This document shows, piece by piece, positions 1-3,024 of a stretch of 6,169 nucleotides of DNA. The notes beneath the pieces were generated by a model, which searched no databases, was not told where the DNA came from, and was given only the letters and a program-made list of their open reading frames with translations. The stretch lies in assembly GCA_001871015.1 (NCBI GenBank), contig MNUO01000022.1:1-6169 (forward strand). Direction: 5' to 3'. The stretch is from Candidatus Desantisbacteria bacterium CG1_02_38_46. Lineage in GTDB: Bacteria; Desantisbacteria; UBA1551; UBA1559. The number at the start of each line of letters is the position of its first letter. Within the stretch, counting starts at the first letter, position 1. The position numbers were made by a program, and so were the translations under genes.

Positions 1-81
1 GACTATGCTTTTATATATCCACTTTCCGGAATTAAAAATACATATGGAACGCATCGCCTCGCTATGATTATGAGATTATGA
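1..81 (+). CDS. C-terminal end of a PorV/PorQ-like outer-membrane protein (partial)
   Basis: Frame 1 is open from the first base of the window to a TGA at 79-81, giving 26 residues that begin DYAFIYPLSG and end THRLAMIMRL. This resembles the last strand of PorV/PorQ (UPF0164-type) beta-barrel proteins, which typically end with a DYAF segment, a short Gly/Asn loop, a Thr-His-Arg and a final amphipathic strand closing in a hydrophobic residue. PorV in type IX secretion binds the C-terminal domain of cargo at the outer membrane. The stop overlaps the first possible ATG of the protease gene as ATGA (78-81), an arrangement typical of translationally coupled genes. That the next gene encodes a protein with a T9SS-like sorting domain fits the assignment. 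The call rests on 26 residues only; any outer-membrane barrel could end similarly, and the final residue is Leu rather than the usual Phe. Confidence 0.5.
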   Translation, partial: DYAFIYPLSGIKNTYGTHRLAMIMRL

Positions 82-1688
82 AAAAAGGGGACGCTTCTAC
101 TTTTTGCGAAATTATAAAAGCAATGTCAAGGTCTCGTTTTACTTTAAAAGTAGAAGCGTCCCTCTTTTTTTTGTTATTATTTGTCTTACCACCACTTTGG
201 GCGGGATATGCGCCTGGGGAGATTCTGCTTAAATTTAAACCTGCAATTACCCGCTCTATAACCGCAGAAGTTAGTGTTAAGAAAATGCTTGAAGTAAGTA
301 TATCTAAAGTTAGTCAATTGAGCAGTAGATGTAAGGTTGATATTCCTACAGTCAAGGATGTTTTAAAAGAAATTGGGGTTCTTCATTTGAAATTTCCCCC
401 TGATTCAGATGTCCTGAAAATTATTGAGAAATACAGGGCTGATGTTGATGTGGAATATGCTGAGCCAAATTATATAAGGCGTATTTTTGTTACCCCGAAT
501 GATACTTACTACGGACAGCAGTGGGGACTTACAAAGATATGGGCTGATTATGCCTGGGATGTTACAAAAGGTGATACTTCAATAGTGGTTGCAGTAGTTG
601 ATACAGGAGTTGACACCGACCATCCCGACCTTCTTAAAAATCTTGTTCCTTATCCTTACGGATACGATTTTGCTTATGGTGATTCTGACCCGAATGATGG
701 ACATGGCCATGGAACACATGTAGCAGGAATTATTGCTGCAGTTACTAACAACAACACAGGGGTTGCTGGAGTTTCCTGGTATAGTAAGATTCTTGCAGTA
801 AAAGTGCTTGACGATAATGGAGAAGGTTCTGATGTGAATGTTGCTAAAGGTATTGAGTATGCTGCTGACAGGGCCAAGGTAATTAATTTGAGTCTTGGTG
901 GAACAATGCCTACAAGTGTTCTACAAGATGCAGTTAATTATGCAAGAGGAAAAAACTGTGTAGTAATTGCTGCGGCAGGAAATGATAACAAAAATGAGGA
1001 AAATTTTCCTGCTGCCTGTGATGGTGTAATTGCTGTAGGTGCCACAGACCAGAACGACAACAAGGCATCTTTTTCAAATTACGGAGATTGGATTACAGTG
1101 GTTGCTCCAGGGACATCAATAATGTCGACGATGCCTAATCACTCGGTTACAATGAATGACAAAGGTTATTCTCAAAATTACGCTTCTTTAAGCGGAACCT
1201 CAATGGCAACGCCATTTGTTTCAGGAGTTTCCGCGCTTATTTTTGCCAGGTTTCCTGTTTTAACTAATACTGAAGTTGAGCTCAGACTGAAAAGGGGAGT
1301 TGACGACCTCGGCGCAGCCGGAAAAGATTCTGTCTACGGATACAGGAGAATAAATGCAGCCAAAGCAATAGGAGATTTTCTTAGCGCAGTAGACCCGATA
1401 AAAATTTATGCCTACCCAAATCCCCTGCGTTTTCCTGAGTCAACGAAAATTATTATTAAAAATGTTCCACTTATAACCGGCTTAACTGTTAAAATTTACA
1501 ATATTGCCGGAGAACTGGTGCGAGAATTCAAAGATGATGAGATAATCCTTAACTGGAATCCTGATTTTGCATATATAGATTGGAACGGCAAGAATAGTTA
1601 TGACCAGAGAGTTGCTTCTGGTGTGTATCTTGCAGTAGTCAGCGACGGCACAAGGACCGCTATTGAAAAAATAATGGTAATTAAATAA
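78..1688 (+). CDS. Secreted S8 subtilisin-like serine protease with T9SS type A/FlgD-like C-terminal domain
   Basis: A secreted serine endopeptidase of the subtilase (S8) family, 536 residues if started at ATG 78. A hydrophobic signal segment lies at about 28-42 (SLFFLLLFVLPPLWA), with likely cleavage near A42 or A45. Residues about 46-135 form an I9/fervidolysin-like prodomain ending in VEYAEPNY (125-132). The catalytic domain runs from about 141 to 437 with the full triad: D175 in VVDTGVD, H211 in HGTHVAG, S375 in GTSMATP; the oxyanion Asn is N302 in AAGND. The last 90 residues start with YPNP (446-449) and contain KIYNIAGELVREF, WNGKN and ASGVYLAVV, the pattern of FlgD-like/T9SS type A sorting domains that direct cargo through the outer membrane. 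The start is uncertain: ATG 78 overlaps the upstream TGA, but gives an n-region of about 27 residues, whereas ATG 123 (M16) gives a normal signal peptide (MSRSRFTLK). Neither has a good Shine-Dalgarno. Codons 2-32 overlap an inverted repeat. The substrate is unknown. Confidence 0.95.
   Translation: MKKGDASTFCEIIKAMSRSRFTLKVEASLFFLLLFVLPPLWAGYAPGEILLKFKPAITRSITAEVSVKKMLEVSISKVSQLSSRCKVDIPTVKDVLKEIGVLHLKFPPDSDVLKIIEKYRADVDVEYAEPNYIRRIFVTPNDTYYGQQWGLTKIWADYAWDVTKGDTSIVVAVVDTGVDTDHPDLLKNLVPYPYGYDFAYGDSDPNDGHGHGTHVAGIIAAVTNNNTGVAGVSWYSKILAVKVLDDNGEGSDVNVAKGIEYAADRAKVINLSLGGTMPTSVLQDAVNYARGKNCVVIAAAGNDNKNEENFPAACDGVIAVGATDQNDNKASFSNYGDWITVVAPGTSIMSTMPNHSVTMNDKGYSQNYASLSGTSMATPFVSGVSALIFARFPVLTNTEVELRLKRGVDDLGAAGKDSVYGYRRINAAKAIGDFLSAVDPIKIYAYPNPLRFPESTKIIIKNVPLITGLTVKIYNIAGELVREFKDDEIILNWNPDFAYIDWNGKNSYDQRVASGVYLAVVSDGTRTAIEKIMVIK
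81..172. repeat. 17-bp inverted repeat with outer A/T tracts inside the protease signal-peptide region
   Basis: Left arm GGGACGCTTCTACTTTT at 88-104 is an exact reverse complement of the right arm AAAAGTAGAAGCGTCCC at 146-162, with 41 bases between. Outside the arms are six A (81-86) and eight T (165-172), so the palindrome extends imperfectly through a G-T wobble and a one-base bulge. The right arm and T tract encode K24 to F31 of the protease, including the start of the hydrophobic signal core. The left side begins at the last base of the upstream gene's stop codon. Arms of this kind look like REP/MITE-type elements moved by IS200-like (Y1/RAYT) transposases; that origin is my inference. 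In RNA the structure plus the U tract also resembles an intrinsic terminator, though the loop is long. Confidence 0.85.
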
Positions 1689-2856: not shown

Positions 2857-3024
2857 GTCAAGGCTAAAGCCTTGAGTTACATCGGTCAGGACTAAAGTCC
2901 TGAGTTACATCGGTCAAGGCTAAAGCCTTGAGTTACATCGGTCAGGACTAAAGTCCTGAGTTACATCGGTCAAGGCTAAAGCCTTGAGTTACATCGGTCA
3001 GGACTAAAGTCCTGAGTTACATCA
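2857..3024. repeat. Six tandem 28-bp hairpin units, two alternating types, between lptF and lptG
   Basis: Six head-to-tail 28-bp units fill the lptF-lptG gap (starts at 2857, 2885, 2913, 2941, 2969 and 2997). They alternate A-B-A-B-A-B, making three 56-bp dimers. Copies of the same type are identical except for the last base of unit six. Each unit holds a 7-bp stem with a TAAA loop followed by GAGTTACATCG-like linker sequence: type A is TCAAGGC/TAAA/GCCTTGA, type B is TCAGGAC/TAAA/GTCCTGA. A and B differ at four stem positions that form two compensated base pairs, so the fold is kept. The array is probably transcribed with lptF-lptG, and its last hairpin (2858-2875) ends 17 bases before the lptG ATG. 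A function in mRNA stability, attenuation or termination is possible but not shown. Confidence 0.95.

Follow-up and report, generated by a model that had tools for sequence, protein, structure and literature searches.

The start of this contig raises the question of how an exact inverted repeat comes to be translated in frame near the beginning of a protease gene, and whether that repeat is a mobile element. The window analysed here comprises 6,169 nt (contig C68) from the genome of an uncultured bacterium (source genome G000; 1.73 Mb, 88% complete). We consider, with a probability of about 0.82, that the feature is a convergent REP pair (REPIN-like) of a RAYT-linked family, which sits where a PorV/PorQ-like gene meets a subtilase gene and is read in part as signal peptide. 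The features of the locus are as follows.

78–1688, + strand: subtilase (Peptidase_S8) ORF with a signal peptide, a fervidolysin-type prodomain and a T9SS-like C-terminal tail.
78–203, + strand: proposed signal peptide from start 78; a script for charge and hydropathy gave MKKGDASTFCEIIKAMSRSRFTLKVEAS as the n-region, LFFLLLFVLPPL as the h-region and A42 as the last residue before cleavage.
79–81, + strand: TGA stop of the PorV/PorQ-like gene, overlapping ATG 78–80 (ATGA); the gene extends upstream on contig C99.
80–171, + strand: strong RNA hairpin in which the two REP units pair (−37 kcal/mol, z −4.6); a U tract lies on its 3′ side.
82–104, + strand: left REP unit RAAAAGGGGACGCTTCTAYTTTT, an exact match to the consensus of the 25 genomic units.
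105–145, no strand assigned: spacer of 41 nt, not repeated elsewhere, which holds a second candidate start, ATG 123–125.
146–168, − strand: right REP unit, reversed, read in the ORF frame as protease residues KVEASLF.

The arms at 88–104 (GGGACGCTTCTACTTTT) and 146–162 (AAAAGTAGAAGCGTCCC) are exact reverse complements over 17 bp and are flanked by A and T tracts; a check of the letters bore out the sequence-only reading that this repeat lies in frame in the protease ORF. Over longer arms (81–104 and 146–169), complementarity is 92% and the gap is 41 nt. When the window was shuffled 100 times by mononucleotides, a 17-nt inverted repeat with its arms no more than 100 nt apart never arose, and folding of the RNA of positions 60–185 reached −37 kcal/mol, against −21 ± 3.4 in shuffles. 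The hairpin could matter at the RNA level, independently of coding. The pair might be mainly an RNA or DNA element between co-directional genes (a terminator, attenuator, mRNA stabiliser or coupling hairpin), with coding as a tolerated by-product, an account that we regard as possible but less likely than not. A strong hairpin with a U tract immediately after the upstream stop is consistent with it, as are the sections of Di Nocera 2013 (PMC3733652) in which published REPs are placed mainly 3′ of genes and thought to be RNA elements. On the other hand, the 41-nt loop is unlike that of an intrinsic terminator and weakens the terminator variant, and no + strand terminator was called in a search limited to loops of 3–8, which is blind to loops of this size. 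An RNA or DNA role and signal-peptide coding are compatible and do not exclude each other.

The REP begins directly after the TGA stop of the upstream gene, whose product is PorV/PorQ-like by an NCBIfam match below threshold. No clear Shine-Dalgarno sequence precedes either ATG 78 or ATG 123. Translation of the protease most likely starts at ATG 78, because the ATGA overlap favours initiation coupled to the upstream gene. The proposed n-region from this start ends in ...RFTLKVEAS and is followed by the h-region LFFLLLFVLPPL, as delimited by the charge and hydropathy script, whereas from start 123 the n-region is MSRSRFTLKVEAS. The right arm codes KVEASL and the T tract FF in the protease frame, and KVEASLFF is translated with either start; the earlier assignment of K24–F31 to the right arm and T tract, closing the n-region and opening the h-region, thus holds for both start codons. 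The REP would stand in for the signal-peptide n-region and the start of the hydrophobic core, here through its in-frame right arm, and the protease would be exported.

The ends of contigs C68 (window 1–302) and C99 overlap over 302 nt as two assembled strain variants that are 98.3% identical. None of the five differences falls within the element, which both variants retain. Among the resulting changes are W41L and A45V, close to where the signal peptide is proposed to be cleaved. Among 59 genomes, no protease orthologue free of the element was found (best match, 46% identity), and the same-order relative of the source genome has no orthologue of this protease.

A pattern search of the source genome showed that the repeated unit is the 23-nt REP RAAAAGGGGACGCTTCTAYTTTT, with 25 near-identical units at 19 places; the reversed control pattern gave 0 matches. 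When the 25 units are aligned, information falls to background right outside the 23-nt consensus. The sequence-only reading had taken a lack of further arm copies in the genome, together with orthologues in related species that have the same residues without a conserved inverted repeat, as grounds for abandoning its interpretation; further copies are present. Its 92-bp mobile palindrome does not survive as the repeated unit. Convergent REP pairs occupy 6 of the 19 places, and their spacers of 4, 7, 22, 28, 41 (window) and 54 nt are mutually dissimilar; we rejected the 92-bp palindrome because the spacers are not common to pairs. In a REPIN, two inverted REPs with a short spacer replicate together; since the spacers here differ in sequence and span 4–54 nt, the two members of a pair could also move separately. 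The 41-nt spacer of the window has no other significant copy in the genome except in the overlapping contig C99. What stands of the mobile-element origin is a dispersed repeat linked to a transposase, whose unit is the 23-nt REP.

With 25 copies of 23 nt, the repeat belongs among the imperfect palindromes of 20–40 nt in many copies that characterise RAYT-associated REPs, and a lone unit forms an imperfect hairpin with a better fold than most of its shuffled versions. It lacks a conserved unpaired GTAG/CGTC end tag, which defines two published super-families and not REPs in general: the GTAG and CGTC letters fall inside the 23-nt unit, and the C/T position of GTAG varies (14 C, 11 T). REPs in this genome are mostly located at gene edges, which also favours the account of the pair as mainly an RNA or DNA element. 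Of the six reading frames of the unit, five are open; on both strands it is K/R-rich first and F/L-rich last, and it therefore suits signal peptides. In a wider contig scan, the exact unit was matched in only one other genome, that of Ca. Desantisbacteria CG1_02_49_89. The same-order genome used for comparison below (G001) matched at identical coordinates throughout and was equated with this relative.

The transposase in question is encoded on contig C60 of the source genome, by a Y1_Tnp gene that scores above the Pfam cut-off and is bracketed by REP units at 8464+ and 9162−, the flanking arrangement that marks a RAYT. Against the RAYT model NF047646 it scored 71.5, slightly under the cut-off of 80, with a stop read through for the model search only. 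This stop is a single in-frame TAA at codon 35 of the gene (L020, 1462–2127), which probably makes the RAYT of this assembly or strain non-functional. A RAYT with 45% identity in a distant genome (G188) has on either side GGGGACGGTTCTCTTTT-type units, like the REP of the source genome, and convergent REP pairs recur there. Because this bracketing recurs in so distant a genome, RAYTs of this type and the REP unit seem to go together in lineages that are far apart. We infer that dispersal of the repeat was driven by a RAYT, and the one encoded in this genome, now with a nonsense codon, would have been its agent. DNA-binding sites are typically dyads, and a chance dyad or a binding site with no relation to mobility could look similar; conservation of the unit at 19 unrelated loci and beside the RAYT gene, together with its recurrence with a RAYT in the distant genome, makes such an origin highly improbable.

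Several other genes carry the REP in coding sequence. The closest parallel to the protease is an NfeD1b gene (contig C82; Pfam NfeD1b_N), in which an ATGA stop/start overlap is followed by the REP (MKRVKRGRFYFSILLIIFAIF), which codes KRGRFYF, and then by the hydrophobic core. The REP here codes the signal-peptide n-region in the opposite orientation and in another frame than in the protease, which shows the K/R-then-F/L polarity of the repeat to be real. The signal-peptide reading is supported because NfeD1b is a second, putatively exported protein with a REP-coded n-region. In XerD (TIGR02225, above cut-off), REP-derived EKRETSPFL lies near the N-terminus, and two units are internal: one in riboflavin synthase (RibE), the other lying between AAA lid and HTH of an NtrC-like regulator. 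The C-terminal ends of UGDH, RNase H, PyrE, a DegT-type aminotransferase and the RAYT are also formed by a REP unit, and a REP pair (L012, 1506–1575; contig C126) sits between the C-terminus of RNase H and the class A RNase P RNA, whose first base it abuts. The copies in NfeD1b, XerD, RibE and the NtrC-like gene are single units without a pairing partner with which to fold, which argues against a role mainly as an RNA or DNA element.

The use of the REP by two putatively exported proteins, and the fit of its polarity to n- and h-regions, would also be expected if the REP had been retained for improving or creating a signal peptide. This adaptive exaptation is nonetheless unlikely, as the 59 genomes provided no element-free orthologue for comparison and the REP is equally tolerated in XerD, in RibE and at C-termini, which indicates tolerance rather than selection.

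The internal copy in RibE, a full match to the REP, bears on how the REP arrives in a gene. RibE of the source genome is 68% identical to that of Ca. Desantisbacteria CG1_02_49_89, the one same-order genome compared, with no gap across the REP:

Source genome: ATA CAA AAA GGG GAC GCT TCT ACT TTT GAG TTT
CG1_02_49_89: ATC CAG AAA GGT AAT TCG GTT ATT TTT GAG TTT

An insertion of 23 nt would be expected to add about 8 residues, but the length of RibE is unchanged, and solved riboflavin synthases align over the REP region with small or no gaps. Comparison with the same relative gave about one residue more at the XerD N-terminus and three fewer in the NtrC-like linker. Comparisons of the C-termini of UGDH, PyrE and RNase H did not tell insertion from replacement. 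In RibE, the net effect is replacement of native sequence, whether in one event or by insertion plus deletion. Tentatively, and with RibE as the one strong case, REPs in this lineage may at least sometimes spread by overwriting existing sequence and not by insertion, although we lean against this. Such overwriting would be a short-homology replacement, for example by annealing of a RAYT-released single strand at A-tract/T-tract microhomologies; if it occurs, it would explain how REPs land in conserved genes and signal peptides with frame and position kept.

The family resembles RAYT-associated REPs and REPINs (Bertels and Rainey 2011, PMC3116915; Nunvar 2010, PMC2817692) in being a short imperfect palindrome in many copies and inverted pairs that flanks a Y1/HUH REP-associated tyrosine transposase, but it differs in having only 25 copies, unrelated pair spacers, many copies over coding ends and a GTAG tag that is not conserved. 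The sections of Di Nocera 2013 (PMC3733652) on intragenic GTAG/CGTC REPs describe REP ends that give stop codons; REPs within genes, such stop codons and N- and C-terminal overlaps are shared features, whereas signal peptides do not figure in those sections, and here some copies lie in signal peptides and RibE equals its orthologue in length. Rickettsia palindromic elements (RPE) are likewise palindromic repeats translated in frame within conserved genes, but they are in-frame inserts of about 100–150 bp, given as 105–146 bp, that add residues; the 23-nt unit is not of this kind, lies mostly at gene edges and leaves RibE unchanged in length. In Yersinia, the mobile repeat YPAL/RU-2 partly forms the signal peptide of the predicted exported protein YPO1552 (Delihas 2007, PMC2229807). 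The contribution of a mobile repeat to the signal peptide of an exported protein is common to both cases, but there a 168-bp MITE was fused into a putative new protein, whereas the present REP lies in a protease from an established family. REPs inside genes and a signal peptide formed by a MITE are thus already known, and the present locus adds one more case of a known kind. How REPs spread is described as poorly understood (PMC8266576), and a small, near-identical, RAYT-linked family in alignable genes permits before/after sequence comparisons of REP spread. In the signal-peptide cases, each strand of the repeat starts A-rich and ends T-rich, so that either orientation can provide an export signal.

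Other repeats and a further transposase were also observed. A second Y1 transposase (L021, 1417–2449; contig C109 of the source genome) has 327 aa, a C-terminal match to DnaA models and 28-nt terminal inverted repeats that are 96% complementary and unrelated to the REP. A second REP-like family, GGTGTCAGGTCTTGACA, occurs in the window at 1690–1775 and in about 80 copies in the genome. Many genes end within it, as ...GVRS* or ...VSGLD(K/M)*; one of them is the window's LptF/LptG-type gene (1761–2861; C-terminus HGVRS). A check for internal copies, made as a test of replacement, found this family mostly at gene ends, with none clearly internal. Between two LptF/LptG genes, window positions 2857–3024 consist of six head-to-tail 28-bp units in which GTCAAGGCTAAAGCCTTGAGTTACATCG and GTCAGGACTAAAGTCCTGAGTTACATCG alternate. 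Each unit contains a short palindrome, and at 1732–1756 one copy is present again in inverted orientation.
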